64,000 nt of DNA, from contig OY987244.1 of the NCBI GenBank assembly GCA_963920765.1, positions 31,104,358 to 31,168,357 of the forward strand, read 5' to 3'. Each line of letters starts with the position of its first letter. Within the stretch, counting starts at the first letter, position 1. A program made the position numbers and the translations under genes. The notes below the pieces were generated by a model. The model did not search any database and had not been told where the DNA came from. It was given only the letters and a program-made list of their open reading frames with translations. This stretch comes from Ulota crispa. Its lineage: Eukaryota; Streptophyta; Bryopsida; Orthotrichales; Orthotrichaceae. Below, in pieces: positions 18,265 through 57,550 of the stretch.

Positions 18265-18348
18265 ATCCACGCAAGCTGGAGAACATGGCTAGGCAAAATC
18301 CGACTCAAGGCCAATTGGCAATTGTCATCTTGGACTAAAATGGTTGGC

Positions 18349-19397: not shown

Positions 19398-19447
19398 AAG
19401 TTGTAAAAGTGGTAAATATTTACAGATTACCACTTTTAAGGTGGCCT

Positions 19448-20515
19448 ATGTTAACCCTTAAACATCAAGTCAGTTAGAAATTGTTTGCTAATTATATAAA
19501 AAGCACTTTGTAGGATGGAGAGAAACCAATTTTCATTTGATTCTTTTAGAAGTGATCATGAAGACATGGTCTATCATGGAAGACAAAAAAACATCCTCAT
19601 CAAGTGTACATATTTTTTTGGGTAACCCAAATTGTGAGAAGATTTAGACATGTGTTAGTCCCATGTTGCCCCAACTTGGGATCCGGTGTATACTATCATA
19701 CTATTGTATAGTGCCCTCCAACAAGTCCTTAAGTTCTTTGAAACCAAGTCCTCTTGTGCTTTGTTTATATTTTAACTAGCTTTTAATTAGATTTTCACCA
19801 AGTAAACATAACATCATGTGCAAAGGTACAAATTTAGTCACAATGTATGAATCAAATAGAAAAATTTGATTATCGTAAAGAAATATCTATTTTACAAAAT
19901 TTGGGCATATCACATATCACAATGAAATCTTGGTAGATCAATTTCTTGTTACTTAAAGGGGTCATTTTTAGCATAGAAGACGTGCATATAGATATTTCCT
20001 ACATACATGTGCAATCAAATCTCAAAATTTCATCACCAATATTTTTTGATCAATTATCATCTAAAACCATGAATTTAATACATAATAACACCAAAAATGG
20101 GGTTTTGATGTTGAGGAATTGAAAATTGGTATACTGGATTGGGATTCTATAAGAATCATATTTCTATGATTTGAAACAACAAAAAATCAATTATATTATG
20201 TATTAGCAAAGTTTTTTGAATGGCAAAACAACGTGTTTGAGGACTTGTTGGAGGGCACTGTACTACAATTTACCAGTTTCCATTATTAATACAATTGCCA
20301 CATGGCAAATCCAAGGATGTGGTCCCACAAGCCCTGAAATGCCATGTTGCCCTTCTTGCAATTTTTAGAAGGTTAGGCATGTATTTTTTACTTTTGCAAC
20401 TTTTGAAAATATTATAATGGGTGGGCCCTTGCCACACCACTATAGAGCACTGTAAAGCAATTATAGAGAGGTAGTCACAAAGATTAGCCCGGTGTTTAGG
20501 AGTTAATAGAGAATT
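19448..20515 (+). repeat. Family E repeat, copy 1, interrupted
   Basis: Blocks such as AGTGATCATGAAGACATGG, AAGACAAAAAA and ATAATGGGTGGGCCCTTGCC match 53480-53950 in the same order. This copy is interrupted by the element at 19710-20259. It lacks the CACTA insertion present in the other copy and so serves as its empty site. Confidence 0.7.
19710..20259. mobile_element. 550-bp element with 20-bp perfect inverted ends
   Basis: 19710-19729 AGTGCCCTCCAACAAGTCCT is the exact reverse complement of 20240-20259. Neighbouring bases (ACTATTGT left, ACTACAAT right) agree at 5 of 8 positions, which would suit an 8-bp hAT target duplication, but this is tentative. It sits inside the family E repeat. No coding capacity. 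Confidence 0.75.
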
Positions 20516-21161
20516 TTGATTTTTCAAGACAAATAGATACTTGATGCATTACAATAAAGATTATTGCAAGATTTTGATTAGTACTAGACCATTTCACACT
20601 AATTTGAGTGAATTTTATCTAATTAGTATGAAAATGTAACATGCTCTCTACCCTTGTTTTCTAAGAAAAGTTTTGGTCACACCTTTTGGCTGCCCCTCAA
20701 GTAACAACTTGGTGACAAAACCAATATAATGCAACATCTTTCACACACTCTAATTGGTTTACTTGCTTGCAAAATCTCCTTGAAATTTTGGCCACTTCAA
20801 TCATGCTATTTAAAATAGAACTTACATAATATAATCCACAATATATTGAATGAATAGTACATTACTGTGAACCACTTTACTAATGCACCTTGCAAATTCA
20901 CAGGTTTCTTGGATTAGTATGAGTTAACGTTATTACCGCAAGGAGCTAAATTTGAAATAACTTGTGTAGTATCATACTATATAGCCCATTAACAACTAGG
21001 AGAACTAGGTAATCATAAATACAAGCTTAGTCCCAATCCAAATTTACAAAGCAATTTTTTTTTAAATGGTGTTAAGTTAAAATATCTCTATTATAGCCAA
21101 AGAGAGATTTGACCTCAAGTGCAGATGATATTTGTAGAGAATTTTTTGAAGAAGCATCATG
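20516..21161. other. AT-rich spacer
   Basis: No gene, RNA or repeat with clear ends is seen here. Confidence 0.4.
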
Positions 21162-21569
21162 TAAGGTAGTACACTTGAAAACCACCCATCTAAGGGCTCA
21201 TCCTTCTTTTTCATGGTTTTCCGTGGATGGGAAGATTTTTAGTTCATCTTTACAAAGAGAAATAAATGAGGAATGCAACACAAGTCATTTCATATTTTTT
21301 GAAGCATTTTTGAGTTACTTACGAATTCTCAAAGGGCATGTGTCATAGGTACCTATTAGTAACCTTAAACCTTCCAAAAACCGTTCACTTGTAAGTTGGG
21401 AAGAGATTTGGGGAAGCAAGGAGAATGATTGGCTCTTGCAATTAAACACACCTTTTTTTTCATACATTCAATGAGTTGTAAGAGGCCAATTTAAAAACCA
21501 TTAGTGCACCATTTCACAACAGGCTAGATGGTTCAAAATGTGCAAACAGTTTATGAGTGTACTACCTTA
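21162..21569. mobile_element. Family D small element, copy 1
   Basis: Perfect 14-bp inverted ends: 21162-21175 TAAGGTAGTACACT and 21556-21569 its complement. The TA at each end suits a Tc1/mariner-like TA duplication. The interior (CATCTAAGGGCTCATCC, CAAAAACCGTTCACTTG, GCAAGGAGAATGATTGGCTC) recurs at 40793-41175. The frame at 21109-21348 runs through it and is not called. Confidence 0.8.
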
Positions 21570-22217
21570 ATGAAATTTGATTTGCATGTCTTATTGATGT
21601 ACCAAGTAGATTCCAAAAATGTGTACACTACCAATTTTAAGTCCAAACATTTTTGAAAACTAAATCTTTGATCTTCTACAACAAGAGAAAGCCTAGCTCA
21701 ACAACAAGGTCCTCTACAACGCACTGGTTGCATTTGGACTAAAGATGTTTCTATACACAATGACATCCCACATCATGCTTTTGTTGCTGCATTTGAAAAT
21801 ACCAACGGAGCACGTCGTTGTCGTTCCCGTTGCCACTCCTTTCTCTCCCATTCACAAAACTACACCAAACTTTCCATTCCATCATACTCCAAACAAACCT
21901 CATGCACATCTCTAATGCTCCCGCACCAAACCCATTCCAAAGTCACTGAGCTATGGCTGCACCCCTGCATGCAGCATGTCAAAGAAACGGCAGCAATCTT
22001 TCCTTGATAATGACCACTCGATGCATAAGCCGCAATCGTCAATGTCCACACGATCTGAGTGCCATCATTTAGCAAAACCTGGAAGGCAAGTTTCTACGCA
22101 AACATGCAACCATCCAATTGTTCCCAGCGTGCTCTCCAAGTTTCCAGCGTTCCCCGAGTTCTGCACCGTCTCTGAGTTCCCAGAGTTCCTCGAGCTCCGT
22201 TCCCTTCCCCAAAAAGG
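21570..22217. other. Spacer leading to a candidate promoter
   Basis: The open frame at 21976-22437 (+) is proline- and threonine-rich only because of a CCACAC / AAAAC simple repeat near its end and is not supported. From about 21960 GC content rises toward the TATA box at 22218. Confidence 0.35.
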
Positions 22218-22225
22218 TATAAATA
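22218..22225 (+). promoter_or_regulatory. Orphan TATA box (TATAAATA)
   Basis: AAAGGTATAAATAGCTGCC is a textbook plant TATA box and context. A GC-rich leader-like stretch follows from about 22240, then a low-complexity CCACACC / AAAACAAAAC tract to 22370. The first ATG downstream (about 22450) opens only a three-codon frame. XPB lies converging from the right, so this may drive an RNA or a gene I cannot see. Confidence 0.4.
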
Positions 22226-22439
22226 GCTGCCTCACTTCGCTTATTATTTGGGGCCTGCGAGCCCAAGGGGGACTCCGCGTGAGTCCTCCGCCCAAAACAA
22301 AACTAAACCGGACCACCCCACACCACACCACAACAAACCAACACCACACCACACAAAACAAAACAAAACGCAGAACCACGAAGAAATCCACTCCCCTCGG
22401 CTCCACAAAAAACCACACTAACGATATCTCAGCGTGAAG

Positions 22440-23005
22440 GCTACGCTACATGGACATGTAAACCCAAGCAACGGCACAGAGCCTAGCAAAATCAACTTGC
22501 GATGAATCAAATGCGTTTGAGAGTAATTTTCCGTTCTTGCATCATTATAGTTCAAATTAAATTGTTCACCGTTGGTCCAGCTTTCATCCAAAAATAGCAG
22601 GTCTAAAACACAAATTGCTCATATTGCACAGCAGGATCATTGCCCTCGATAAAAGATCTACCTATTTCATAGATAGGTAAAATCAATGCAAATATATTAT
22701 ACATGTATACTCTCAAAGACACAGAACCTAGTGTGTCGCGTGTACTTTACACACAACACATTTATCCACAGTGACTAGGCAATGGTCAAGACCATCAGGC
22801 ATCAATAGCCCTCCCTGGCCTTCTTAATAACCTTACATAGGCATCAAAAACACAAAACGCCCAAAAGGTCCGAAGAAAGGCTCGTTACATTACAGCTAAA
22901 CAGAAACTTAAAGAATTTCTGATATAGTCCCTGAAAACTAAAAGACCTAAGTTTCTCACACCAACTCGCAGTAAAGACAATGTGACAAAAGCTGGAAAAT
23001 ACACT
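22440..23005. other. XPB 3' flank
   Basis: Likely holds the 3' UTR of XPB on the minus strand. No other feature is supported. Confidence 0.4.
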
Positions 23006-26000
23006 CTAACCGAAACGTTTCTTGAAGAGCGTGTTGCGAGGTTTGTTTGGATCTCGTGCTTTCGGTTTGCCACCTCTTCCTCGACCGCCGGTGCTGCACA
23101 ATAGTAAAAAAGCTTTTAGACCTTAGCTAATCCTTGAAAAAAATTCTTTTCTTTTACGAGGTCATTAGTGAACACAGCATTACGATAATTGAGATAGTTT
23201 AACAGTCATATGTACAGGCAGATACCTGTACTCATAGTAAAGCCGGCCTTCAGCTCCCGACATATTACTCATATTGCCATGCCTTCGAGTAAACCTGCCA
23301 CGTGTGATATCATCTACATCCTCATCTAACTGCTCAATTCCAATTGCCTCCTCTCCAGCATGAAGAACCTGGAGAAAAAATATGATATATGTCGTTAATT
23401 CCTGCCGGGTATCTCACAACACAATTTTCGAGGTCTTCGAGGAGTAATGAGTCGGATATCTGACAGAAAATGTACCTTCGTTAGCAGACTCATCTGTTCG
23501 TCAAGGGAGGAGAAGCTCAACTCAGCCCCGGAATCTGCAGGTGGTAGGCTTGTAATTACCTGCAATAAAGATCCCATATACAACGGTCAGCCTGTTCGTA
23601 CATAACAACAAGCTATAAAATTACACAGAATAGCAAGCAGGTGATTCTTTAATCAATCTTGTCACCAGGTTGTTTGCAAGACATGTTTCCTTTGAAGGTA
23701 GAATATGCAAACCAAGCTTTTGATAAGTCAAGCAGAAGTACCTTGAAGCTATAACCTTGATCAATCAGAAACTGCTGTCTCTTTGTAGAATAGTACATTT
23801 CCTGTTCATAATTCAGAAAAGGCAACAATCAGTCCGCAAATAAAGTGCTAGATTTAGCAAAACACGTCGGTTTGTGGTAGTGGCCTCTAATGTAAATATT
23901 CAAACAATTTAATGATGCATGGGGACTTACTTGAGTGTCAGTAGAAACCAAAGAGTAGAAGAATGCATTGAACTCCTCGACCCCCCCTTTCATACGATCC
24001 TTCGGTTTCCCCTGTACAAAATAGTGGAATATTGATTAGAAGGATTTTGGTTCAAGCCCCAAAATTTTAACGACCATGACTTGCAATCAAACTTTCAAAA
24101 TATGTTTGAACTACATTCACCATATAAAGAGGTGGTGCAAATATCACCTTCTAAAACATTTCCCAGTAACGACAAACAGAGGACTATTAACCAGCGCATC
24201 CACATGCAATGCTCAACCTTTGCTCGTAGAATCCGACCCAACCTTTGGGCTTCTTGCCGACGTGAACCAGCATGTGACGAAATCTGGATGATTACATTGG
24301 CCTCTGGAATATCAATTGAATTGTCTCCCACCTGGTTAAAGAGACAAGAAACACACACGTTGTCAGCATCAACCAAAAAAGACTAGATTGACACTAAAGT
24401 AAGAATTTCATATGTCAGGTATCTTGAAAAGGCTAATGATACCTTCGATAGGAAAATGGTGTTGACTTGCGGGTTGTGCTTGAATGCGTACAGAATTTGT
24501 GTCCGCTCATGATGGCTGTAAAGAATTAACCCACATAATGCATCATCTAACCATGAACGTCGAGCAAATGCTAATAAGAACCGCCAGGCTTGGGATCAAA
24601 ACTTGGTTGAAGCTTTTGAAAATATATGTAATGCAGAAAAATCCATGAAAACTTGGCAACTACTACTGCAGTAAATAATAACATTCATATCACACTAGAA
24701 ACATTACAGCGTTTTCTTTACTGTGAAATTCAAGAAAAGGCAGGCTACACACCTGGTAGGTCCATAAATGAATGGCTTTCGAAGCTTTGTTGCATACTCG
24801 CGAAGTGCAAACAGATTGTCAGAGAACACAATAATTTTGTCGCCCCGCTGTTGCTCATGAAAACGTATTAAGAACTCACAGGCACGAAACTTGTTTGGGT
24901 TCATGACGTAAAGTCCCTACAAAAAATTCAGGCTCATTAGCTAATAGATCGTTATACACTAAGGACGACAGTACCTTTGAAAAGCCAACACCGGAACATG
25001 ATACAGACTTCAGGGTATGTAAGACTTCGGTGCGCTGAAAGCATTGCATCCACAGTAGTTTTGATTCCACAACAATTCTTGCGTACACACTATCTGGGAT
25101 TTCCACTGTACTATTGAAAAAGATACCTGTTTCTTCCTCGAGTTTTCTTTCTTGAGGTACTCTCTGTAGAACTCTTTGGTCATAGGGCACCAAACCTCCG
25201 CGCATTGCACGTTTGCAATAAAACCTCCCTTTACCAGATCCAGCCAGTTTGCCTCGTACAATTTGGGCCCAATCAGAAAATTAAGATCACTGATTCGTTC
25301 ATCCTCACGAACTAGGGTGGCTGCAAGCGCGATTGAGAAATGTATCAGCTCCAGTGCTTACACGTTTCGTTCAGATCCACAACATTCAGGTGGGGTATAT
25401 TGTAACAGCTTGCAAATCAACGCACTGATTTTCTCTGATGACATGGCCGGCAAGCCCCATGCCTAGATGCTCACAGTATCTAATACTCTAAGACCGACAT
25501 GCATAGAATCAACAAGACTCACAACACAAACAACCCTGATACAATTAGCCAGTGAGGTGCCCACCAGTAAGCCCAAGCTTGCAGTGCGATTTTGTGATAC
25601 TGATGACTTTTCGAAACATATGTGCAGGTACAACGTGCACCTGAGCAAACAATGATTAAATGTTGACATCAAAAAGCTTCATGAACTAGAGAGCGTATGT
25701 TTAGACCCTGCAAATGTGTAATAGACCTTGAGCTGACGTATATTCCAAGAATGTCAAATACTGAAAAATAGTGCAGGAATACCTCGTCCATGAGCAGCAG
25801 GCCCCACTCTCGATTCTGGATCTCCTCAATAATTTTCTGAGACTCTTCGGATCGCTTGCCACCAAAAGCAACCATGTTGTAAGTGGTTACCACCACTCCA
25901 ACAGAGCCCCGGAACCTCTCTTTGCTGTCGGACGTAAACCGAGAAATTTGATGATCCGCCACTGTCGACCACAATTTGAACTGAAAAGCCCATTGATCAA

Positions 26001-28059
26001 CTGACACCGCATTGGTAGCCAGGCACAACACACTTTTGCGGATTCGACAAGCTGCTGATACACCAACAAGTGATTTTCCAGCCCCACAAGGCAGCACGAT
26101 GATTCCTGATCTGGCGCGTCCTGCCAAATTATCAAGATTTCAATAGGTAAAAGACAAGCCTGATCGCAAAACATTCAGAATAAAGAAACTCAATGACCGT
26201 CGTGCCAAAGAGTCTCCGTTGCAATACTCGGATTGAGTACCAGTAAACGACACGAACAGCTTGAGTGAATAAAAGCATGTATGCTGGAACTTACAAATTC
26301 TACATGTAGGAAATATGTAAAGGTTTCTCAACTCACCATTTCCAAACATTTTGCTGAGACTTTTTTCTTGGTAAGGTCGAGGTTGAGCTTGTGGCTTGAG
26401 CTCGATGGACAGGTTTGGATTAACCTGCCACCAACCGTACATATATGACAAACCGTCAGCTGTTATTCATCATACAACATGCGCAGAACCCTGTCCAAAC
26501 GGTAGTTCTGAATACTTACGTTGTCATTTCGAAAATCGTATTCTTCAAGCATGGGGAAATTTAGAGCATTGGGCAGGCAACGCTGTTTTACAAGCTCAAC
26601 CTGAATTTTCAAACACCAAGTGCAATCGTTATGGTGTGATGAATGCACCTTCGATCGAAACAAAAAACAGCTGAAATGCTAATGATAATCCTACAATAAA
26701 ATGTTGTTGAATTCCAATTTAAGTTCGGTGATAAGGGTTGCTAAAGAGCTAAACAATGGTATGTGTTTATTGTCCAACTACTCTGAGACGTACTAGCACA
26801 ATGCAAGGCCTAATGTAATGCTAGTGTTCATTGAGACGGAGACCTGAGCTGAATCGATCTCAAAAGAGTGGATCTCTTTCTCTTCAGCATCATTCATAAC
26901 ATCATTTTCTCCCAGCAGCTCCGGAGCAGCTGCTCCAGTTTCATGAGGTGCTCTGCTGACTGTGAAAGACGAGGATCCAGCTTCTTGTGCCTGTAAAGGT
27001 TCATGAAAATTTAACCGCATATTCTTATGATATTGACTAAAAACGTGGAAACCCTAAACCTCCAAACACATATTCACGTTGAGTTGACGTATCATGAGAG
27101 AAATCAAATATGATACATGTTTACGTTGAACATTAGAATGCAATTAAAATAAAAAGCATCTTAGCCTCAAGTGCCGGACAAACCAATACTGCCGCCAAGA
27201 AAATGTAGTATGAACTTGGCATGTGATCATGCTTACCTCATTAGCAGTGATTCTTGCTCGTGAAATGACGTCATCCCGCAGTAATTTCTGCAGAACCTGC
27301 AAGAAGCATACAAAGTTGTTACAGTAAAAACCACGTTGCAGTACACTACTTGCTCAGGCTACATTTCCTATGCAGGAAGGACAAGAATAGGGACTTGCAG
27401 GATGACTAAATAACAAGAAAGATCTTTCACAGTGATGCCAGTAAACCCCAAAGACTTATTCATCATGAAGAGAGGTACTTGTGGAGGTTGCAACCTCTGG
27501 AAACGGTGACTCCACAAAGTACCGATTCTTCTGAAGTACAAGCTTGACTTTGCCATAATTGAGAGTTGAACCCCGGATGAAATCGATAATTTCTTTGGGA
27601 AGTTTAGTCTTGGACAACCTATCCAACACAGTGATGATCGTTTCTGTTTCAAGGCCTACTGACACTGCCGCATAGAGGGAGTGCGGAGTCAAATTGTACT
27701 CGTGCATCGACTCTGGCCTGCATTCCATAACAAAACTATTGTATCAATTAACTAAACAAAATACCTTTCAAAATAAGCACTTACATGATTATTTCAAGAC
27801 ATAAGAAACTACAAGGACGCATTATAAAGCACCAATAAAGCTTACAGCTACAGTTCCTGTACCTGCAAACGGGCTCCGCAATTGCGATGAGAAAGTCATA
27901 CGCTTGCTTGTACAAACTTGAGAAAGTTTCCAAAAAAATTCGCCCATCCGCACACACCCACAGCGGACGATTGGCATGGTCTGCCTTCAGTTCTAACTTG
28001 GTAAAATCCTGCCTCTGGATTTCTTCTACCCCGTCCTCGGGATCATCCATATCCATCAT
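23006..28059 (-). CDS. XPB: TFIIH helicase subunit XPB (ERCC3/Rad25), 17 exons
   Basis: A 3'-5' DNA translocase of TFIIH, used in promoter opening and nucleotide excision repair in the nucleus. Exons in order: 28059-27863, 27717-27495, 27296-27237, 26990-26844, 26600-26520, 26424-26337, 26120-25783, 25640-25565, 25320-25127, 24916-24753, 24515-24443, 24331-24218, 24011-23931, 23801-23742, 23559-23476, 23368-23226, 23093-23006. Phases join to 736 residues; Arabidopsis XPB1 has about 767, the difference being a shorter acidic N-terminus. The N-terminal domain starts [17 protein letters not shown]. Walker A GAGKS is at 278-282, DEVH at 377-380 (split by intron 7), LTAT near 402-405, the RED motif at 408-410, and motif VI QRLGR at 576-580. 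The end NTLFKKRF is the family C-terminus. All catalytic motifs are intact and all introns GT-AG. Confidence 0.97.
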
Positions 28060-28073
28060 TTTTCAACAAACGG

Positions 28074-28087
28074 TAAAACCCTAAAAC
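28074..28087 (-). promoter_or_regulatory. Telo-box in the XPB leader
   Basis: TAAAACCCTAAAACC on the plus strand, about 15-28 bp upstream of the XPB ATG, so within the 5' UTR or core promoter. Confidence 0.45.
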
Positions 28088-29134
28088 CTGATCCTCTCTC
28101 AAACCTGCTTAATGCCTTCTCTACCGCTCTCTACCCCTTGAAATAACTAACAACAAGACCATTTCTACTCCCTCCCTCGGCTGTCCTCTCTGCTGTAAAC
28201 ACCTGCTTGCAGCTCAGCTTCTTAGTACTGAATTCACCAAATTTCGTGTACAATCTAAAAGGCATGCATGCAGAAACGTTGCAAAAGCAAAAGTCCTATC
28301 TTGCTCCGACTTCTGTACAGAGACGACCGTGAGAAAGCTCATCGCTAGCCAGCATGTTCTAACGTGAGCCTCACGTCAACCTAATTAACGAGGTAGAATT
28401 ACTAAAAAGTATACACATCTCATCGATACACTTAAATCCCTAAGGGTATTAATTCGAGTAGCAATGTTGTGTTCCGATACGATCAGGAAAGAATAGGTAG
28501 GTTCATGGACGACCAGGAAGACTCTCCTAAATTAACAAACCCTAAAATACGACAATTTACGAGACTACTGTACCACAATACCCTTAGGTTTTTCGAAAAC
28601 AAAAAGAACGCTTCCTAAACAACCGGGAGTCGCATTGACTCGCTCTGATCTTGTTGACTCAATTCAATTGTTTCAACTTGCTCTGAAAACAAAGAAACGT
28701 CCACCGCATCCACCATGCTTGTGATTTCACCATCAACAATTGCTACGATCCGGGAAAAAGCATACCACAATCTCTCGACGATTCGGACTCTCCTGCATGC
28801 ATGCTGCCAGTCTCTTCAACGCTTGCAAAGTTTTTTTCCAATGTAAAAAAGAAACGAAACCCTAGGATGATGCGAAGACAGGGCTTGATCCTGCAAAATG
28901 AACAATCGCGAAGTGATATGATAAGCTTACTTCACGAAGAAGCTGACCTCCACGTTGACGACAATAGGGCGACGCACATGCGGGTTTAGCAGCCCTGTCA
29001 TCCGCCAGCCGCTGCCCTCCGCCAGGACACGTGGCGAGGCGCGGTTGGGCCGTTGGGGGACCTGCTGTGGACTTCTGGACTTGGCGGAGGGGGTGGCTCC
29101 GCCAGGCCAGTTTTTACTTTTTTTTTCAGAAATA
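28088..29134. other. XPB upstream region and GC-rich island
   Basis: Likely promoter of XPB next to the gene. From about 28970 to 29110 the sequence is GC-rich with inverted CCGCCAG / CTGGCGG-like runs and a G-box-like GACACGTGGC at about 29026. Open frames at 28801 and 28955 are not recognised. Confidence 0.35.
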
Positions 29135-29921
29135 TTAACCCCTAAGCGTCTTGTTAAGAAAATTCAGCGTACCTCCAATATAAATCCTTCAACACATTTT
29201 TTAAGTTTTTGGAAAGTTGAATAAGTAATCACACAATCCAAACCGGTCATTCTATACCCAATTATAAATCAAATGTTTTAAACAAATTTGATTTCAAATC
29301 CAAATAAATTTGCAAAATCTCCACCGTTCAGAATCTCATGTTTTCCAATTTGGGCAACAGTTCAAAATATGGATTTTGGACTTTCATGTAAAATTTTCTC
29401 AAAAAAAAAATTTACCTAATGGTTGATCCCATGAGATTGTGTCTTGCTATACTAAATGGAAAAAAAAAAAAAAAAAACTCTACAAATGGAAAAAAAACTC
29501 CAAAAGATATGGTCACTCAAAGTAGCTAGATTCCACTAGCTCCTTACTTTAAAGTTATAAAAATCTTGCCCAAATCAAGAAAAAAAAAAATGACACATCA
29601 CCAAACTTCTCCCTTGTACAATACAAGACATGAGAGCACCCACCCCATCCGCTCTCTAAGCCGCTCCCTTTGTTTGCCCAAAGACATTCTTTTCCTAATT
29701 GTTGAAAAAATAAAATATTTTCCATGTTCCATATAGAATCTAGAGCAAAATAGGCCCTTCAAGGAACAACAAGCCAATCAGAAACTTTCCTTGAACTAAC
29801 AACTCCATTTGGACTTGAGTGGCAAACCAAAATTTGAGCTAGAAATGCCTCTTTTATATACTTTCACACCTCTAAGCACTCCCTTTGGCCATATTGGGCT
29901 CTTTGGTCCTTTAGGGGTTAG
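29135..29921. mobile_element. Possible TTAA-type element, weak ends
   Basis: TTAA at 29135-29138 is followed by CCCCTAAG, and TTTAGGGG at 29910-29917 is followed by TTAG. Only about seven terminal bases match in inverted order, so this could be chance in an AT-rich spacer with several A runs. No coding capacity. Confidence 0.35.
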
Positions 29922-29967
29922 GAGTAAAGGAATTAATACCTAAGAGCATCTCCTGCAACACGTATAA

Positions 29968-30049
29968 CCCTTAAACGACCATAAGGAATCGTATATACGC
30001 TGATGTATAATTGTTAGTTGCTACTGATAAGAAATTTTAATTTAGGATC
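29968..30049 (+). mobile_element. Family A copy 2, left half
   Basis: Starts CCCTTAAACGACCATAAGG after ATAA (one base from TTAA) and runs to TTTAGGATC. It aligns with the left half of copy 1 and with the complement of 42550-42627. The rest of the copy resumes at 39340, beyond the retrotransposon. Confidence 0.75.
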
Positions 30050-30468
30050 TGTCAAATAAAGTAAGATTGCTAAACATAACAGATTGAGAGTCCCAATCCT
30101 ACCATAAAACAAAAAACAAACTGAGCTCTCACTATGTACAATACAGCCTCAAATGCCCCCCCAAGTGGATAAAGAGACCCTCTATCTGGCTAGGAACCCA
30201 GAACATCAAGAAGACGATCTCCATGATGATGCTGCTACAACCAGTGTATGCATCCAATTGAAAAAGTAATCCTCAACCAAATCAATAAACGAATGGAGAA
30301 GTAACTAAGAGAGGGTAGGCGGGGTGCAATGTGAGCCCCATCCTTAATCGCCTTTGACATTTTTGATGTCAATTTCATGGTCAATCTTCAGTTTGTGTAT
30401 CCTTGAAACAAAATGAAGAATTCCAATCAGACAACAGAGTACCATACCATGACAAGTGCATGTGGAAT

Positions 30469-33400
30469 TCAAGTTGCTCCACTAGATGAGACAGAACTCA
30501 AATACCTACAACACCGAGGGCAAGTCCAATCACCAGATGGTAGTGTAGAAAGAGGTGGCATCAAGCAAGCCATATGCCATCCACGTTGGCAATGGTCACA
30601 GAATAACATGGTGGCCGCACCCCTCTTCTCACCACAAACAAAACATGAGAGGCCCTCAGGCACAATGGCCAGCTCAAGGTGAACTGAGCCGTCAATAGGT
30701 AAGTGACATGGGGCGCAATTCTTGGAGTGCTCCTGACACTCCCTGCCAACTTTGCCTTCCAACAACAGAATACCACTGGATAGCACATCCTTCACACGAA
30801 GAATCGTGCGCCTCACCTTCACATCCAATGTTGTGGGAGCCTTACGCTGTAGATAAACGTAATCTCCAGTGGTAAAACGTCGTAGTTGAGGCCGGTAGGC
30901 TCCGCTACGAATACATGTGTACCGCAATATGTTGCGGTGCTGAGCAATGGATAAGTTGTCCATGGCCATTGGCATGGCGCGTTTGAAGAACTCTGCTCAG
31001 TCACGTAAACAACAAGCCCACATCTTTGGATCGTCCAAATCTACTACTGGAACCAACTTCTCCCTTAGAGAACTGGGTAAAATTGACTCACGTCTGTATA
31101 GCAACTGATATGGACTGAAAGCAGCCAATGAAGCTTGTCTGCTAAACCTGTATCCTATAGCAATCCATGGGATCATCAAATCCCACTCGCGATGGCTGCC
31201 CTAAAATAATCCATACTTTCATAGGCCACGCTTGACCGTCTGAACCACACGCTCTGCCAACCCATCTACTTCCGGATGATCCCGAGAAGTGGTACGATGA
31301 TCAATTAAAGCTTTGGTACACAAAACCTCGAAAGCTCCAAAGAACTCACGTCCCTAGTCTGTCAACACCTCAGCATGGGCTCCAAATCGAGCCAACACTT
31401 GGTCTAGGAATGCCATGGCCACCAACTTTGAAGAGTTTTGTGGTAGCGCCACAAGCTCAATCCACTTGCTAAAGTGCTCCACCATCACCAACACGTATTT
31501 GGCTTCACGTGGGGTGACAACAAGTGGCTGGCCAAATCCAAGGACCAACGGTAGCCCAGCCCCATGATAGGCAAAAGCTGTATTTGCGATGGTAGAGTGT
31601 TGAAGCTGGATCTAATCCGATCACACACTTCACACCGTGAAACATATGTGGCAACCTGCTGATACATACCAGTCCACCAATACTGGCTGCGCAACATGGA
31701 ATGAGTCCGTCGTACACCAAAATGTCTAAGGGCTTTGTATACTTGCCGTACTAACAAAGTCCTCTGCTTTGGCCTAGGAACTATGCGCCTAGTTCCATTA
31801 GGCCACAACCAAAATAGAAGGTTGTACTCCCAACAAAACCTTGCTATCCGGTGTCCAACTCGATTCCGCTCCATAACTAAAAGAGCTGGTGGAAGTGCCC
31901 TGTGCTGTAACTTATGCAAGACTGGTATATCTTCCCACACATCGCTAACAACTTGAACCTTCTCTAGCTCCTCATTAGTTGCTTGGTATGGCAACAAAGA
32001 TGCTGATCCAGACATCAAAGTAAGGAAGGCGATTGCATGCCACCCCGGAACTAACTCCCCGTCACAGTCCCCATGCCACCTAACACCAATCAAATCTTCC
32101 TTGGAGGAACTTGGATTGCGAAAAAGACCATCTGCATCCAAGTTTGTGATGCCGGCTCAATGTACAATGTCAAAATCATACTCCTGGAATAACAAAATCC
32201 ACCTAGCGAGCTTGCCAGTAAGCTTATCAGACTCCATGAGCCACTTCAAAGGCTGGTGGTCGATCACTAAAGTGAATTGTTGCCCATACAAATAAGGCCG
32301 GAAGTGGGCAATGGCCCAAACTTTAGCCAAAGCTTCTCCCTCATAAGAGGAATAATTAGACTCCGCATTGTTGTTGCTTCTAGAAGCAAAAGCCACACCA
32401 TACTCACGTCCTTCCTCATCATTCTATGTCAATACGGCTCCTTGTCCTACAACATTCCAATCTGTGTGCAATTAGAAAGACCACGTAGCATCTAGGCGTC
32501 AAAGTACAGACACTGAACCAAGCTTCAGCTTCAATGTAGTAATGGCCTGTTGTTGCTCTAGTCCCTATGTCCATGGTTGATCCTACCCCGTGAGAATAGT
32601 CAACGGCTTAGCAATCAAGCTAAAGTTCTTAACAAACTTGCAATAATAATTTGCCAAGCCAAAAAAAACTCGAAGCCACGACACGTTAGTTGGGGTTGGA
32701 ATCTTCTGCAGCGCATCCACCTTAGTCTGCTGCACACCAAGACCTCCTGGCATAATCATGTGCCCCAAATATGGTAACCAGCCGTGGGAAAACTTGCACT
32801 TTCCATGGTGCAATTGCAATCCCCACTAATGCAACTTGTCAAACACCGCCTGAAGATGCTTCACATGCTCCTGAGGGCTGCTATTAAAAATGATAACGTC
32901 ATCAATGTAACAACAAGTAAATGGAAGACCAATTAACATCCGGTCCATCACCCTCTAAAACTCGGCGGGTGCGTTCTTGAGTCCAAATGGGAGAAACTTC
33001 TGATGATAAAGTTAATATCTTCCATCCTGATCAACTCCCAAAATGCCGTCTTCACCCGGTCATCCACCATCAATGATAATTGGTCATAACCAGATCGCAA
33101 ATCTAGAGTACTAAATACTCTAGCATGTCCCACTGCATCAAACAACTCCTTTGGCGTGGGCATGGGGTACCAGTCCGATTTGGTCTTGCAATTGATCGGT
33201 CAATAATCCCCACACATCCGTTTCTCTATCCAGTTGCCAAAGATATCCTTCTTCAAAGGCATAACCGTGGCACAAGCATACTTGCTGTTGGAGAGCTCAA
33301 TCAAGCTAGCGGCTAACAACTCTTGACATTGAGTCTGAACCTCAGTTTTTCTAAAAGACTGAGCTTATACGGTCGTCGGAAGATGGAGTGGTCATCCTCC

Positions 33401-35685
33401 AACTGAATGTGAATTGGTTTGCCCTTGTAGCCCTCCAAATCATGGAAGCTAAAGGCAAAACAACTACGATACGAACGTATAAACGCTTGTATCCTTCATG
33501 CTTCGGCATTGATAAAATGTGGCCTTCAATCCAAAGCCCAATCATCAAACTCTATGGTTTCCTTCTCTACCGTTGGAGAACCACCGCATACCGGCACGGT
33601 CGGTGATTGCTACTTGATAGCAGAGAGGGCGCTCATGCCCCCAAACTCCTCACTCATGGGATCCATAGAAAACCCCGTATCGTGATGATGGACTTGCAAA
33701 AATAAGTCTTGGGTTGCATCTCGGCTAAAATCCTCGGCAAAAGCAGCAAAGACATATTGAGCTCAAAGCTCCTTTGACACAAGCCTCTCCAAATGAAAAA
33801 ATAGCTCCGCCTCTTCAACTTCAGTGGGATGTGGCACCATTGCCTCCTGACCATTAAAGCTTGCCTCCAACACACGTGGATGGTCACGCTGATGACGTTG
33901 AATGGCAAAGCAAATGCCAGAAATCCATACGAAGGTGTTGAGGTTAATAGCCTAACCCAATAAGAAACGGCGCTAACTCTCAGAAAGATCTGGTACGGTG
34001 GTGGTAATAGTCAAAAAGTCCATCGTCTGCTCTCGCTCGTCGGATGAAGGCTTGTCATAAATGTGGAAAGTACTAATCCAAATCATGCCTGGACCGCCTA
34101 AGCAAAAAGCAAAGGATGCTGGGTAACACATCAATGTGGATAATGATCCTTGAGGAAAGCCTATACGGTTCACCAGGATTAACGGCGGCTCATCATCTTT
34201 GGTGATCTTCGTAGAAACACAATGATCATCCAAAATATCATCGACCTCGTAGTGAGTGGGTTGTCACACTTAAACTAGTGCAAAGGTGAGTATTGCCAAA
34301 GATGCCAAGTTGGTCCAAATCCATCGTGGCCGATGGGCATATAAGCCCAACACGGCGGCATCAACAAATGTAGGAGGACCAAGAAGGTGATGGATGTATG
34401 CACCATCCTCAAGCACCTTCACTTATGTGTCACCTAATGGAGGTACATTCTCAAAAAGGTACTCAGGTGGCAGAGATTGATGGGTAATCCACCACTGAAT
34501 GAGCCTGAGTAGATCTGCAAAGAGTGATGACCGCGAATCATCTAATCCACATCCATTGCCAACTCGTAAATGGCCTTAGTAAGGCCATCCGGCAATCACC
34601 AGATCCACATGACCTAATCGCCTGAGATCATCCTCACTGATAAACGTGACATATTGTGGTAATTTGCCGAAACATCCATGGATAGCAAAAGGTGGAAGCT
34701 GCTCATAATACAATGCTAATAAATGATGAATGTGGTGGTGAGCGGCTCAGTTGGCTGCAAAGCCACTGTTGACATGGATGTATTGCCGCACCTTGGCCCC
34801 AGCATCTAATACAGCTGTCAATCCTGTATCAATGCCGGCAAAGATCTCAACAAGAGTAATGCCATGGTCTGGTTGGTGCCATTGAATAGTGCATGCTAAT
34901 AACGGTGTGGAAGATTCCAAAAGGGATTAAAGAGCATCAAGAGCATCCACAATCTCTCTACTCCAACAAGTAAGCTCCAATTGAGTTCTCCATGGTGGGA
35001 ACGGATCTTTGCAATGACGTGCAGGGATCTCCATCGGTGCAAGCTCACATGACTCCTCGAGTGCTGACATAAATGCACATGTCTCATCCAAAATAATAGA
35101 AGCACATGGCATATGAGATGCCAAACCAGTGCATCCAAACATAGCCCTTGTTGTAGATGTCACTGTGCTAGCTGCAAAGGTAATAGGAATGAGCTCTTTA
35201 CTGCCATCGTCGGCAGACCATCATGGCCTAATCCATACCTCCTCTGTCTAATTATCCACCCCAAAATCGAGTGGATATAATGCTTGCTGGCCCACCAAAA
35301 TATCGTAATTGGTGGCACCAGTCACAGCACACTGGAGAGATACATGGGAGAACAATGGACTCGATCCTACACCAAACATCAACTGTAATGGATGTCGTGT
35401 ATAACCCATGACCTTCTCCGTGCCTCCAAGTAATGTGATAATGGTGAAGGGGCAAGGCTCAAGGTCAATAGCCTCTAAACCCAAATCTATGGTTGGCTGT
35501 TTGCCAATTATGACTGGCTGAGCTCCAGAATCCAACATTACTTGTAAAGAAGTGGCTCGTCTAGGGTTGCCATTGGTGCAACCAATCAACATGACTCCGT
35601 TGTCATTCACCAAAAGTATCACCCTTGGACGCAAATTGCGTCTCTCCAAGGCATAACAAGCCGCAATGTCAGCCAAGTAGGCCAC
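30469..35685 (-). mobile_element. pol region of the Ty3/gypsy element
   Basis: Fossil pol. The protease part (35248-35685) shows the DSGA active-site motif. The reverse transcriptase part (about 32580-33600) shows LDLRSGYDQL and a YIDD box. The RNase H part (32157-32396) shows FTLVIDHQPLKWLM and FDIVH. The integrase (about 31000-32140) shows the zinc-binding HFGVRRTH..CEVCDRI and a core starting near YVLVMVEHFSKW. The last segment (30469-30975) carries a C4HC3 PHD finger. It is broken at several points. Confidence 0.85.
30480..30625 (-). mobile_element. PHD finger at the end of the integrase region
   Basis: Cysteines and histidine follow the C4HC3 plan: CFVC, then CDHC, GWHMAC, and finally WTCPRC, with spacing normal for PHD zinc fingers and the conserved Trp two residues before the last pair. 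PHD fingers read histone H3 tails. Many plant Ty3/gypsy elements carry a chromodomain at this position instead. Confidence 0.85.
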
Positions 35686-39339: not shown

Positions 39340-39493
39340 GATCTCAAATAGTTCACTAGAACCACATTGATGTATTCTTCAACTTCTTTGTTGGTCTTAA
39401 ATGTCATAGAGGTGTGGATCCATTCCTAATATCAAGGAAAATACCCCTGTATTATACTAGTCGCAAAGGGCCTTTCGATCGTTTAAGGGTTAA
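39340..39493 (+). mobile_element. Family A copy 2, right half
   Basis: Starts GATCTCAAATAGTTCACTAG and ends CGATCGTTTAAGGG followed by TTAA (39490-39493). Its end is the inverse of the left half's start: CCCTTAAACGATCGAAAGG against CCCTTAAACGACCATAAGG. It matches copy 1 from 10194 onward at roughly four bases in five. Confidence 0.8.
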
Positions 39494-40459: not shown

Positions 40460-41189
40460 TAAGGTAGTGTGCTCATAAGGTAGGAACACCCATAAGCGGC
40501 AATTTAAGGGTTTTGAACATGATGACTATTAATAAACATCTAGCAAATTATAGGATCTTGTTAGCAATAGAAAAGTAATGAGTTTGCACTTTTGAGAGTA
40601 TTGTTTGGATATTGTGAAAATGAGTTGTAAATTTTTAAAGAGCAAATTGCCATTGCACCCATAACCAACACTAAGGTTTCATGTTCACATGTTGTACATC
40701 ATTACAATTACATCTATTTACTTCTACAAAGTTTCCAAGATTTTAGAGGTGACGGTTATGGGGACACTAACGTTGTGGGTGTTCCTACCTTAAATCATCT
40801 ATCTAAGGGCTCACCCACCTTTTTCATGGATTTTTGTGGATGGGAGGATTTTTTGTTTGTTTTTCAGACAAAGAGAAATAGATGCGGAATGTAACACAAG
40901 TCGTTTCATATTTTTTGAAGCATTTTTGAATTACTTATGAATTCTCAAAATGCATGTGTCATAGGTCCCTATTTATGACCCTAGACCTTCCAAAAACCGT
41001 TCACTTGCATGTTGTGAAGAGATTTGGGGAAGCAAGGAGAATAATTGGCTCTTGTAATTAAAAATACTTTTTTTTCCAAGCATTCAATAAGTTGTAAGAG
41101 GCCAATTTAAGAACCACCAATGCACCATTTCACTACAGGCTACCCGAGCAATTCAGAATGAGTGAGTGGTTTTAGAGCAAACTACCTTA
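40460..41189. mobile_element. Family D element, copy 2, with a nested element
   Basis: Inverted ends TAAGGTAGTGTGCTC (40460-40474) and the complement of 41175-41189 agree at 14 of 15. The body from 40793 matches copy 1 from about 21183. It is interrupted at 40476-40792 by another TA-flanked element. Confidence 0.75.
40476..40792. mobile_element. 317-bp TA-flanked element nested in family D
   Basis: Perfect 17-bp inverted ends: TAAGGTAGGAACACCCA at 40476-40492 and its complement at 40776-40792. The termini share the AAGGTAG start of family D, so the two may use the same transposase. No coding capacity. Confidence 0.85.
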
Positions 41190-42924
41190 AATGCCCAAGC
41201 AACCAAATTTGGGTACTCACATAACTTTGAAGATTAATAAAATCATATCAAATCATTTTTTTTGTATTTTTTTTCTATTCAAATTTGTTTGAAGTCTATT
41301 TTCATTGTCAAAAATCTAATTTTGAAAATGAATGTTGATGATTTTTCTACTCAAGATTTTGTACAATGGTGTCCACAACAATCTTGAGTTTTCTACTAGT
41401 GGAAGATCTTGAAAATGTGCCTCAAATATACTAGAGCTTAGAGAAAAACCCACATTAGACATCCATTTAAAAAAAATGTAGGAGTAGATTTTTAAAGCCA
41501 AAATTGATTGAAGTTAGACATGTACTGACATTAACTCCTAAATGTGTGAGTGTGCCACTGCGACTAGTACAACATAAGGTGTTTTTCTTAATTTTGGAAT
41601 AGATTCACCACCTTTACTACATTTGAGATCAACAAGAAGTTGAAGAATATTGAACACTTGAGAACTTGAGTAGGGTCATACAAAGTGAACTTGTATTGGA
41701 TGTTCTCCAAATTGTTACACAATGTATATTATTTAAACCCCAAGTGGAAATGTACTTTTTCCCCAATTGGATGCCCGATTCAAAAATTATGCTACCTAAA
41801 GAATTTGGGCAATTTGGGCATCTTTGGAGAATTTTATGCTAAAACTCTCATCAACTTTTGAAATTTGGCATGCATGTAACTTCTAAAATATGGTATACAA
41901 CTAGAAAAAAAAATCGAGCTTGCACATCACATTCTAGGTGGAATCAAAATTTGTTAACTATGTCCAAGCAATTTCAAAAAAATATATATTCTTCTAACTT
42001 TAGACCCTATTATCTTTCAATCTATATATCCAAATCTCCTATTTTTTTTCACATATTCCAAATGTTTATCTCTAACTTTTTTGCTGTTTGGATTTCAAAT
42101 AAGAGTATTCCTCAATGCAAAAAATATCACAATAGAATGACCAGTGATTTGTCAATTTACTTAACTTCCTTGCATTGCAAGATGATTTAAAATAAGGTAG
42201 ATTATGTATTTGCTTTTGAAATGTTTTATAATTTGACCTTACATCATATACTTATGAATGGTCAATAAGCTTGTATTTGTTTAGAGCAAAAAGTTTCATG
42301 TAGGAGAGCTCAAAGTCTAGTGACCTTGTTTTGCAAGAATAGAATTTTTGTTCTTTTCACTCCAAACATTATAATCTTACAATCCACGTAGTTAAATGGG
42401 CTGAAATTTTAAGCACACATTGACTTAATTGTTTGACACACTTCTGTATGGTTGAACTTTAGGAAAACATTTTTCATTTTCAATTTTGGGCAATGCATTG
42501 AAAGTCGGCAGTTTTGAGTAATTTTCTCAAAAAACACCCTTGGTGCTTTAGGGGTTAAAACTTCTTTTTGGTAGCAAATGCCAATTTTGCAACAATCTAT
42601 ATATTATTGCCTATGGTCATTTAAGGGTTAAACCTCATATTTTTTGGTAACCAACTTTCTAGATTTGTCATGTAAAATGAGGATTGAAAGACTTTAAGTC
42701 ACTTTTGTAGTTTTAACACCCTCATGTTCAAACACTGTAATCTTTCAAACTATAAGTGAAATTGTTGTGTTTTCTTTTCCCATGTAATCTCTAACATGTA
42801 CAGTTTAAATTTGTACAATTACAATTGAAAAAAACTTGATGAAATTTATGAAAAGGTTGGTTGATTATTCAGTTTCATAGAAATTCCAAGAAGCTCAAAT
42901 AGGCCTTGGGCATTTAAGGATTAA
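41189..42924 (+). mobile_element. Family B copy 3, interrupted by family A
   Basis: The left part (41189-41530) matches copy 1 from 18764. The right part (42628-42920) resumes at AAACCTCATATTTTTTGGTA and ends GGGCATTTAAGGATTAA. A 1.09-kb TTAA-flanked insertion lies between. Confidence 0.75.
41531..42631 (-). mobile_element. Family A copy 3 inserted at TTAA in family B, with further insertion
   Basis: TTAA at 41531-41534 and 42628-42631 bound 1093 bp. The left inner part matches the complement of family A's right half (AACATAAGGTG, TTTACTACATTTGAGATC). The right inner part matches the complement of its left half (TTGGTAGCAAATGCCAATTT). Between them is family C-like sequence ending ACACCCTTGGTGCTTTAGGGG then TTAA, so a second TTAA element appears to sit inside the first. 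The frame at 41858-42190 is not called. Confidence 0.7.
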
Positions 42925-42931
42925 GGGTTGA

Positions 42932-43280
42932 CCCCTACACAATCATTGTCCCTTTGGGAGATAAGTGGGATTTTGGGCATGCACCTATGGCTAAATTACT
43001 TTGTTTGATTTTTTGAAACTTTTATGGATGATGTGGAATTCAAAGATTTACATGGGCATCTAATTTTTTCTTCATTTTGATGTTTATTTAAGAAGTTAAA
43101 AATGAATTTCAGAAAATGGGCAAGATTGGGCAAGCCAAAAACTTTTTTTAAAATTGCATTTGAAATAAAAATAAAATTATGAAATGGATTCTTTAGACTT
43201 ATATATAGGTGGGGGGCTTTTAAACATTAAATTTTGATTGATGAGATGAAAGTTATAAGAAGCTTTCGTTTGCAAGTAAT
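42932..43280 (-). mobile_element. Family C copy, partial
   Basis: Starts TTGA then CCCCTAC and follows the complement of 51640-51960 block by block (CACCTATGGCTAAATTACTTT, TTTTTTGAAACTTTTAT, GATGAGATGAAAGTTATAAG). The similarity fades after about 43280. Confidence 0.65.
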
Positions 43281-51020: not shown

Positions 51021-51985
51021 TTAACCCCTAAAGGCCCAAGCCCTTTTTTTGTGAAAATCACTCGAGACTGCCACTTTTGGGGGACTGAAGAGAAATGTTT
51101 TTTTTTTTTGTTTTTGTTTTTTTCAGAAATCCAACCGTAAGATCTTGCCCTAGGCAATGGGAGGTACTCATGGAAAAAATATTAGCTTGTTCTAGATGGT
51201 GAGGAGTGAGATATTCGCATAAGAAGTGAAAAAAATAGTTTTTTCACTGTTGCCCAGAAATTTCAAAAGCCTTTGACGGCTCCTTTATAAAAAAAATTGC
51301 TCTACGCAAAGTTGTGGTTTATCTTTCCCATGTAGAAGACCAAGTTAGGTAAATGTGAGAGAATTTTCAAATGAAACGGAGGTGTGGATCATACTTTGTA
51401 AAATTCTGCAATGCTGTAAGGTCATGAAATTTGCATATACACTAAGCAAAATTGGAGGATTTATGTAAAATTCAATAACCCAAATTACTTTGATCCAAAT
51501 GGTGAAAACCAAGGAATCTTAGTCTACTACAACTTGCAAAAAAAAAGTCAAAAAATAAATACACAAAGAGCTCAAAAAAGTAAAGCAACAAGTTTTACAA
51601 GGGGGAACAAGAATGGAGGTTTGGGAGTCCCATACCTACCCTCAAACTAAAACTTCTCATAACTTTCATCTCATCTATCAAAATTGAATGATTCAAAGAT
51701 GTCCACATATATAAAAATCTAAAGTACCAATTTCAGATTTTTATTTTTAAAAAGTACAATTTTGAATTTTTTTTTTGGGCTGCCCGCCCTCATCCTTTTT
51801 CAAAAATTCATGCATAACTTCTTCATGAAATGTTAGAATGAAGAGAAAATTACATTTCCACGTAGATTTTTGAATTCCCCACCTTCAATAAAAGTTTCAA
51901 AAAATCACAAAAAGTAGTTTAGCCATAGGTACCTGCCCAAAACCTCATCTGTCCCCTGAGGGGACAATGGGCCTTTAGGGGTTAA
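51021..51985 (-). mobile_element. Family C TTAA-flanked element, complete ends
   Basis: TTAA at 51021-51024 and 51982-51985. The ends are CCCCTAAAGGCCCAAG and TGGGCCTTTAGGGG, a perfect 13-bp inverted repeat (CCCCTAAAGGCCC). The length is 957 bp between TTAA sites. The complement matches 42932-43280, and its far end matches the family C-like end at 42490-42560. No coding capacity; the 50897-51157 frame is not called. Confidence 0.85.
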
Positions 51986-55113: not shown

Positions 55114-57550
55114 ACATGACCACCTCACCCATGTTTCTTGTTTTTAAAATTTTTGAACTTTTAGCACTTTGTAATTGCTTGTGAAATAAAAAAACATTTG
55201 GTTTTTGTTTAGAAGGTCAGAAAATTTCCTTATCATGGATAAATTCATAGGTTGATTACCCATAGTTTCAAATTTCATTCAGCCCATTTCCTCATCTACA
55301 AGTGCACATTCGGCTAAATTTCCTACAGATGAAATTGTAACTCAACTAATTTCCTAAAGCCATGTTTTTATGATTGGAAGCAAATCCGCCAACTTTCATT
55401 TTATTTTGGCAATCCTCAAAAAAAGTCGGTTGATTTGTAACTAAAACTCGGTTCTCTCCGGACACTGTACCTTACTCAAAAATCTAACTATTGTTGCAAG
55501 GACAAAACCTTTGTTAGTGTACAGGCTCGTTACACTTAATAATTTTTTTTTAATAAGTTCAACCACATCTATGAACATTGCATTGGTGGCTCACTAGTGT
55601 AATTTTTGCACATAAGGTAGACACACCCATTCCCAATTGGCTCCCAAATTCCGCACCCTAGATTTGAGGGTTTCACCATACATTAGCTATTGAGCCCAAA
55701 GTGGAACAGTGAACGCTACTTGCACAAGCAAATCTTACCACATGTTAACTACTGAGTTGATTTGGGAAGGCTGAGATTGGAAACATTAAATGTTGTTATA
55801 GGAACACATCCAAGCAAGCAATTTTCAGTGTTAATCTAGCTTGTAATTATTTTGAAACTATACCCCTATTTATAGTATTTTTCATTTTTGTACCCCTATT
55901 TGTAATTTACCCTTTATTTTTTATATATTTGGCTTATTCGATTATTCCTTGTGAAAAGGATAACAAGTGTCAATGGGTTGAAAACACCTTGCGTACAACA
56001 ACTAAATTCGTATGTTGATATCTGATGTCCATGATGGATGCACGCTACCTCTCAAAGCTGTTTAAACAAGACTAGCAAAGATACTTCCATGATTGAATTT
56101 TATTGAGTTTTGTACGGTTGGTTTCATTCATGTTTTTTTTAATATATTCCTTCAGAACTACATTTGAAAGTAGTGAGCCCTGAGTGATTGTGTGGGAAAA
56201 ATATGCTTTAAAAAGAAAGAAAAGGTCTTACAAAATACAAACAAAATCGACTTACGGAAACCGAAAAAGAAAATATCAAATGTGCTTTGTAGAAGAAGTC
56301 ATTGTCCTACAATCTTTGAAGATAAGAACTAATCCCAATTTGAAAACTACCACTCAATATTGCATTTAAGTTGCCTTAAAAATTAATTTGCGAAACCTCA
56401 TAAAGCTACCTCGTGACTCATCACTTAGCCACTTGAAAGTGCATGCAACTACTTATATATTAGGAACTCACATGGTTTATGACTTAGACATTATTAGTTT
56501 GTTTTTTTGCAACTCTTGTTGTTTTTGTCAAGCCCTTTAAAATTTGTTAATGTAATAATTATTGATGAAAATAATTATGGTAACAATAAGTATTTATGTA
56601 GTGTAAGATGTTGAGAAATTTGTGTGGGATAATGTAAACTCAATGTTGAGTGTAGATTAAGAAGAAGACAATTTACATTTTGTCATGTTTTGGGTATGTT
56701 TTAAATAAATAATACATTTTTTCAAGAATAAAATGCTTGACAATAGCCAAATGAATTATTATAATTGTCATATTAATCAATTCAAAACAATCAGGTTTGA
56801 TCTCCAAAGACTTAGTGTCCACTTTTAGAAATAAATTGCCCATCATGACTTTTGACAGGGTATATTTTTCTTATTATGTAATGCAAGATGCTCATCTTGT
56901 TTGTTTAGTATTTAAGTTCTACATCAAACCTACTTCTTGAATAATTTATTAATTCATTATATTTCTGTAATATAATAAGAATGCAAGCATTCCTTTTCTC
57001 CTTATTTTAGCAGAGTCAGACATACAATATCATGCTAGGGAGTACTTTGGTTCTTTATGGTATTGGAAGAAGGTTTGGTGTTAAAATTGCAATCAAAGAA
57101 CAAATTGTTTTTAGGAACTTCAAATTGAAGGCCTTCAATGGGTTCAATTGCAAGGTATGAGAGGCACTTGGAACTCTCCATCTACATGGATCCAAGAACT
57201 TAAAATCATTTACAAAATACTAAAAACTATGCCCTCTTGAGGGCTTTCCATTTATATAAAAATCTACAAACATACTATTTCACAATACCAAGCCTTTTTG
57301 CACTATAAGGATTTGATTTCTTTGAACTACCTAAGTTTTTGTTTACAACTTGAGCCAAACAAGTTCAATTATAACCTTTCACACAAGACCATTTAGGGTA
57401 AAACCAAACTACTTTCACTATTCATACATTAAGGGCATCTCCCCTAGCATCATAGGCTAGGGTTTGGGGAGAATTGGCATTTAATTTATTGTCAATTGGT
57501 TGAAATTGCAAAAAAAACTAGTTGGCATTTGAAACTATCTTATAAAAAAG
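55114..57550. other. AT-rich spacer, no supported gene
   Basis: No recognisable protein, RNA or element with clear ends. The frame at 56184-56369 is lysine-rich by composition only. Confidence 0.4.

Follow-up and report, generated by a model that had tools for sequence, protein, structure and literature searches.

We analyzed a 64,000-nucleotide stretch of the Ulota crispa genome (GenBank assembly GCA_963920765.1, 275 Mb; contig OY987244.1, positions 31,104,358 to 31,168,357, here C3:31104358-31168357). We call this whole stretch the window, and positions given without a contig refer to it. It carries copies of three families of short repeats, A, B and C, that lie between TTAA tetranucleotides and that we interpret as probable miniature inverted-repeat transposable elements (MITEs) of the piggyBac superfamily. 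The most informative site is one at which a family B copy was itself interrupted at a TTAA.

A nest of TTAA-flanked elements

The elements of the window are as follows.

41185-42924, + strand: family B copy 3, of a diverged subfamily, interrupted; a 253-bp match, 85% identical, to the internally deleted relative L074
41531-41534, no strand: left target-site duplication TTAA, where uncut B copies have a single TTAA
41535-42627, + strand: composite insert of 1,093 bp, a family-A element holding a family-C element, with ends CTCCTAAATG (start) and CATTTAAGGG (finish)
41655-42558, + strand: C element (CCCCTAAAGGACC family) inside the family-A element, 5′-truncated; its 3′ end, CTTTAGGGG followed by TTAA (42555-42558), is intact
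42628-42631, no strand: right target-site duplication TTAA
18756-19398, + strand: family B copy 1, full length, from TTAA and CCCCTAAATGCC to GGCATTTAGGGG and then TTTAA
39490-40127, − strand: copy 2, related to B, 638 bp, flanked by TTAA at both ends, which read CCCCAAAGTGACATTG and TCCCAAAGCGTCATTG; contains the uncut TTAA 39772-39775
10126-10353, − strand: family A copy without a nested element
39340-39493, − strand: family A copy, partial, adjoining copy 2
51021-51985, no strand: 965-bp element of the family C type, with TTAA and CCCCTAAAGGCCC at both ends; a relative in L067 matches over nearly full length
42928-43272, + strand: partial copy of the 51021-51985 type

A first, sequence-only reading of this DNA had described copy 3 as cut by 1,093 bp bounded by TTAA at 41531 and 42628, and the cut lies at exactly those positions. 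Of its outer ends, copy 3 retains the 3′ TTAA (42921-42924), while the 5′ TTAA is degenerate. Uncut B copies read ...CTTTAACCTT... at the insertion point, with one TTAA. When we aligned the best 30 genomic B copies (window copy 1 among them) together with window copy 2, a single TTAA occupied the insertion column in 28 of the 31 sequences as read by eye (all except L064, L065 and L067), or in 29 by a looser automatic count. The uncut TTAA that had been reported in copy 2 was found on the complement strand, and that of copy 1 is also present, at 19100-19103, roughly 10 bases from where it had been placed. Filled and uncut B sites thus agree on what had been proposed, insertion at one TTAA that leaves TTAA on both sides.

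The insert is composite rather than a single element. At its two outer parts it matches family-A copies (10126-10353 and 39340-39493); in the middle it matches a separate family, C, of ~950 bp, with TTAA-flanked CCCCTAAAGGACC ends of its own. Used as a query against the genome, the insert produced 3,997 first-look candidates; 40 places were scored, with 41 matches, and 39 of these places lie elsewhere. Besides the window itself, nearly all matches span only query positions ~120-1025, which correspond to 41655-42558, and the main matches to this middle part are 77-81% identical. The C relatives L002-L008 measure 942-964 bp, and five of the seven are flanked by TTAA on both sides (12 of 14 ends). 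In the window copy ~36 bp of the 5′ end are gone, and this side was lost along with ~35 bp of adjoining A sequence. In the alignment, the TTAA at its 3′ junction falls on 10193-10196, the single TTAA that the uninterrupted A copy has there. Because A accounts for the outer parts of the insert and C for its middle, and the 3′ junction of C fits the TTAA of A, we conclude that three levels are nested here, C in A in B.

The C element in A is thus a further filled and uncut case, readable on one side only. Another, independent case is a 224-bp insert at L082:2439-2662 that interrupts an L072-family copy: TTAA is duplicated around it, and the relative L072 has a single TTAA. This insert ends in TCCCAGAAGGGC and CCGCTGAACAGCC and is therefore not of the CCCCTAAA type that is abundant in this genome.

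Ends and interiors across the genome

Family B measures 634 bp between its TTAAs and has terminal inverted repeats (TIRs) of 14 identical bp (CCCCTAAATGCCTG in the consensus), or 18 bp with one mismatch. Its best 30 copies, from 4,277 first-look candidates, are 92-96% identical to the consensus, a sample biased by being top-ranked. TTAA flanks 27 of these 30 on both sides, and in the other three one side is mutated or shifted. Together with the C relatives (5/7), this makes TTAA on both sides the rule among the copies examined, as the sequence-only reading had expected of an alignment of genomic copies. Copy 2 shares the TTAA at 39490-39493 with the neighboring family-A copy. It combines a B-like interior with another end type (CCCCAAAGTGACATTG and TCCCAAAGCGTCATTG), and interiors and ends therefore evolve separately.

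The ends are very numerous. The exact word TTAACCCCTAAA occurs 30,972 times genome-wide, against 77 for the reversed word; CCCCTAAATGCC occurs 5,148 times (reversed control 6) and TTAACCCCTAAATGCC 4,241 times (reversed control 0), TTAA directly preceding 4,241 of the 5,148 CCCCTAAATGCC words (82%). In the window, 27 sites lie within two mismatches of TTAACCCCTAAA, compared with 8.5 ± 2.8 in shuffled sequences, and none of 100 shuffles reached 27. As an element has at most two ends, 30,972 ends require at least about 15,500 elements; a rough estimate extends to about 35,000 if ~42% of ends survive exactly, a rate taken from a sample of 100 TTAACCCCTAAATGCC sites.

Among those 100 listed sites, 42 make 21 head-to-head pairs when matched by hand, spanning 72-1,503 bp. 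Thirteen pairs are B-like (637-664 bp), and the others measure 72, 79 (three pairs), 386, 906, 931 and 1,503 bp. Comparison of six paired-end elements revealed that L071 and L074 are B-related, that L072 and L073 form another family, and that L075 and L076 are the 79- and 72-bp forms. These last two, L075 (C1:241492-241610) and L076 (C1:3324704-3324815), are ultra-short: with their TTAAs included they are barely more than two ends. The 1,503-bp L071, which is CCCCTAAATGCC-ended, was considered as an autonomous relative and rejected, as it turned out to be a B copy into which two foreign MITEs have inserted.

Ends also abut one another. The arrangement TTTAGGGG-TTAA-CCCCTAAA, in which two ends share one TTAA, occurs at 335 sites genome-wide against ~161 expected if ends were independent and evenly dense over ~1.49 million TTAAs, a number extrapolated from the 346 in the 64-kb window. 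The excess is twofold on this crude measure.

piggyBac transposases and superfamily assignment

The genome encodes piggyBac-type transposases. The PF13843 profile matched 120 times, at 116 loci, and every listed match exceeds the curated cut-off; 116 of 527 candidates were scored, so there are at least 116 loci. The same profile found none in 14 control genomes, a weak comparison because the kind of these genomes is not stated. We aligned the best 30 matches after correcting for strand (13 lie on the minus strand, and ends were searched for on both strands). The majority consensus contains TVDE, DNFFTSP and MRGVDxxDQ, with the first aspartate in 27 of 30 sequences and the last in 26. Of these 30 domain stretches, only that of L019 is free of stops. 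Its protein matches the solved piggyBat (1.2e-21) and piggyBac (6x67, 1.1e-16), and its three aspartates line up in the piggyBat alignment.

Two transposase-bearing families could be delimited. In L009 and L018, copies that are 90% identical, similarity begins exactly at TTAA and CCCCTCATCGCC (C3:13130262; TTCA in the other copy) and ends at TTAA (C3:13135288), giving 5,027 bp with both TTAAs. The L014 family, of 5.1 kb, runs from C2:15046195 (TTAA then CCCTTGACCGCCCAAGGGACGAA, of the end type TTAA and CCCTTGACCGCC) to 15051296, with TTAA and CCCTTCACCGCC as its inverted end. The ends of these families start CCCCT or CCCTT and are TTAA-flanked. Upstream pieces of five transposase loci showed a clear 5′ end for L014 only, with none pairable in the other four. 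No 12-bp TIR pair adjoining TTAA was found in 30 transposase loci (4 kb each), because elements with found ends are ~5 kb and exceed the 1.5-kb flanks. On C1 up to 29.2 Mb, inspection by eye revealed no transposase-type end ~2.5 kb upstream of the PF13843 loci among 100 exact ends listed.

A second, partial piggyBac transposase (C10:11522208-11522963) lies ~2 kb beyond the 5′ end of the L018 element, within C10:11522208-11528657 (L070 and L018). Stop-free piggyBac domains were seen at C1:1180709-1181995 and C8:19570986-19572215. Since the 2.1-kb piece that we looked at upstream of the C8 domain contains no CCCYT end, these two may be domesticated piggyBac genes.

Some MITE ends resemble the ends of the transposase-bearing elements. 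We compared 18-mers in 44 comparisons; the background consisted of 692 window 18-mers next to a TTAA, among them the window's own element ends. The L072 MITE end CCCCTAAATGCCCAAGGG scores 14 of 18 against each of the two transposase-element 5′ ends, and no background 18-mer equals this (0/692). The 5′ ends of C and of a bridging element agree at 12-13 of 18. This bridging element (L082:123-504, 382 bp) carries a CCCCTAAATGCC end (CCCCTAAATGCCCAAGGAGACGAA) and a CCCTTGAACGCC end (CCCTTGAACGCCTGGC), and the latter, BR3, matches the 3′ end of L014 at 13 of 18 positions (0/692 in the background). Its family has 40 scored places among 1,363 candidates, 25 of which span at least 345 bp, and includes a probable copy in the window:

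9816-10123, − strand: probable degenerate bridging-family copy, its two ends CCCCTAAATGTCAAGGAGGAC and TTCACCTCAATGCC (read by eye); 9852-10035 gives a 184-bp match, 72% identical, to L082:123-504

The pattern TTAACCCYTBANYGCCNAAGG matches 903 genomic words (reversed control 0). The L009-type 28-mer, which is the transposase-element 5′ pattern, matches 1,809 words with up to three mismatches (reversed control 0), TTAACCCCTAAATGCCAAAGGGGACGAT being among those listed. The ends form a graded series from CCCCTCACCGCC to CCCCTGAATGCC and CCCCTTAATGCC. The site C5:2092822, chosen for its mixed end, belongs to a 382-bp MITE.

Several results weigh against a piggyBac origin of the families. Stops interrupt the matched stretch at 108 of the 116 transposase loci, leaving eight that are stop-free. 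Against transposase-element 5′ ends, the two ends of B score only 10-12 of 18, which 3 to 9 of the 692 background 18-mers equal, and family A ends score only 8-12; against transposase-element 3′ ends, MITE ends other than BR3 reach 6-11 of 18. Six probes, set 2.6-3.4 kb inward of related ends whose subterminal sequence is AAAGGGGAC, a spacing that assumes the L009 layout, contained no piggyBac domain (0/6; one CCCCTAAATGCC end, of the CCCCTAAA type, and five CCCTTAAACGCC ends, of the CCCTTAAA type). In 30 of the transposase loci and in pieces flanking some of them, CCCCTAAA ends occurred only on apparently separate MITEs. We found no transposase-bearing element with CCCCTAAA ends, in searches for piggyBac transposases. 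The genome search for a transposase with matching ends, advocated by the sequence-only reading, spoke for that reading: it yielded the PF13843 loci and two families with TTAA-flanked CCCCT or CCCTT ends and subterminal likeness to some MITEs. It yielded no transposase with the CCCCTAAA ends themselves, so that the autonomous partner is inferred.

That missing partner is also what could be expected if the families belonged to Sola3, which duplicates TTAA, or to an undescribed TTAA superfamily whose likeness to piggyBac ends is convergent. The ends of A and B are only moderately like those of transposase-bearing elements, and TTAA with C-rich ends is by itself a weak signature. We nevertheless consider such an origin unlikely, as some MITE ends are alike over 18-28 bp, the likeness is end-specific in the bridging element (BR3 against the L014 3′ end), and the graded series of ends joins both kinds of element.

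The reading that we prefer, with a probability of about 0.86, is that A, B and C are land-plant MITEs of the piggyBac superfamily, non-autonomous and mobilized in trans, with the transposases encoded at other genomic loci. TTAA flanks, PF13843 loci and related ends on small and transposase-bearing elements support this classification, which the sequence-only reading had favored. According to the available passages, piggyBac inserts near-exclusively at TTAA and restores the site footprint-free (PMC8086355), its hallmarks are TIRs of 12-19 bp starting CC[C/T]T beside TTAA (PMC2872659), and CCCTT and CCCTC are among the conserved starts of animal piggyBacs (PMC10813416). The 14-bp TIR of B falls within this description; the exceptions are the A end of the insert, which begins CTCCT, and copy 2, which begins CCCCA/TCCCA. 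Kolobok, another superfamily that duplicates TTAA, is a very improbable source: in the passage available (PMC9587614) its termini are 5′-RR..YY-3′ and its plant hosts are chlorophytes and rhodophytes, not land plants, whereas the ends here start CCCC or CCCT and have relatives on the genome's own piggyBac elements.

It could also be argued that TTAA belongs to the elements' own inverted repeat and that the sites are no target duplications, which the flanks of isolated copies cannot decide because TTAA is palindromic; we give this almost no credence, as in two independent cases the uncut relatives show one TTAA where the insert lies, in a third case the same is seen on one side, and two inserts of other families in the B copy L071 yield junction overlaps of 9 and 12 bp instead. 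These overlaps also indicate that the comparison method does not force TTAA. The two L071 inserts (L071:327-762 and L071:973-1378) are other MITE families, with ends GGGGAAATTACAAATAGGGG and of a TATGTGTACCACACCC type, and are perhaps hAT or Mutator-like; a relative lies in the window at 55841-55930. The resemblance of the ends to the plant telomere repeat CCCTAAA, which had been pointed out earlier, looks incidental, and we reject a functional tie because the related ends CCCCTCACCGCC, CCCCTGAATGCC and CCCTTGACCGCC lack that repeat.

The piggyBac transposase excises its element via TTAA hairpins and inserts it at TTAA. By analogy, a transposase acting in trans on these MITEs would bind inverted ends of the CCCCTAAA type together with the subterminal sequence next to them, excise the element, and join it to 4-nt staggered TTAA ends, leaving TTAA on both sides. 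At 41531-42631, a family-A MITE probably entered the TTAA of the B copy and a C element a TTAA within that A element, with a later deletion taking the 5′ tip of the C copy and some adjoining A sequence.

Neighboring genes and relation to known systems

The window also contains host genes and another element. A gene for anaphase-promoting complex subunit 5 lies at 4824-7403 (− strand) and a pyruvate kinase exon at 11095-11874 (+ strand); an open reading frame (ORF) has a plastid-like pyruvate kinase leader. A retroelement remnant at 30469-32156 (− strand) has an ORF with an integrase zinc-binding domain (PF17921), followed by an ORF with a PHD finger (PF00628); it is possibly an integrase with a chromatin-reading domain. 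The NAC domain (PF02365), of a plant-specific family, gave 25 matches at 13 loci genome-wide, 12 of them in two pieces. These loci and the plastid-like leader point to a land plant, and so few NAC loci suggest a bryophyte or other seed-free plant.

piggyBac is a major superfamily of animal transposons, important also as a tool for gene delivery, but little described in plants, whose MITEs are generally assigned to other superfamilies. The presence of piggyBac in plants is not itself new, since passages of PMC8086355 and PMC10813416 state in general terms that piggyBac-like elements occur there. In the C-fern, likewise a seed-free land plant, the passage available reports PiggyBac-class repeats (1,230 copies, 122,417 bp, 0.00% of the assembly) and mentions no MITE families (PMC6890710). 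Among titles, abstract beginnings and passages of the open full-text literature, none that our searches turned up describes native piggyBac MITEs from a land plant; the match to 'piggybac' in the passage from PMC10619864 is merely the word piggybacking.

The coral piggyBac-type MITEs (CMITE) of Acropora are a close parallel. As described in the available part of PMC2872659, these are short and non-coding, have TTAA duplications and CC[C/T]T ends, and coexist with piggyBac transposons, one of which has a TIR in common with a MITE family; one element was built by insertion at an internal TTAA, and cross-mobilization is possible. The elements described here differ in their land-plant host, their CCCCTAAA ends, the 30,972 exact ends genome-wide and the several interiors with common ends. 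Pokey of Daphnia, with its mPok MITEs, is reportedly another piggyBac superfamily member with MITE derivatives, but it has an animal host and uses a specific rDNA site besides others. The transposases share with piggyBac and piggyBat (PDB 6x67/6x68, 9c0f) a related DDD sequence, the TTAA target and ends starting CCC, although the transposase-bearing elements are ~5 kb, unlike the well-defined piggyBac of 2,472 bp (passage in PMC10813416). Thus, the kind of element is known from animals, and what is noteworthy in a plant is its numbers, the ends common to several families, and the nested arrays.

More tentatively, and at slightly less than even odds, this seed-free land plant may hold one of the largest known piggyBac-driven MITE radiations: perhaps 15,000-35,000 short elements, with several interiors and interchangeable ends of TTAA and CCCCTAAA, that would be cross-mobilized by diverse, now mostly broken native piggyBac transposases and would prefer the TTAAs of existing copies, producing nested and abutting arrays. 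The 116 native piggyBac loci and the ~31,000 matching ends mean that TTAA elements can become very numerous in plants. They provide a source of plant-native ends and transposases for study, and they represent a class of repeats that may go unclassified in plant annotation pipelines.

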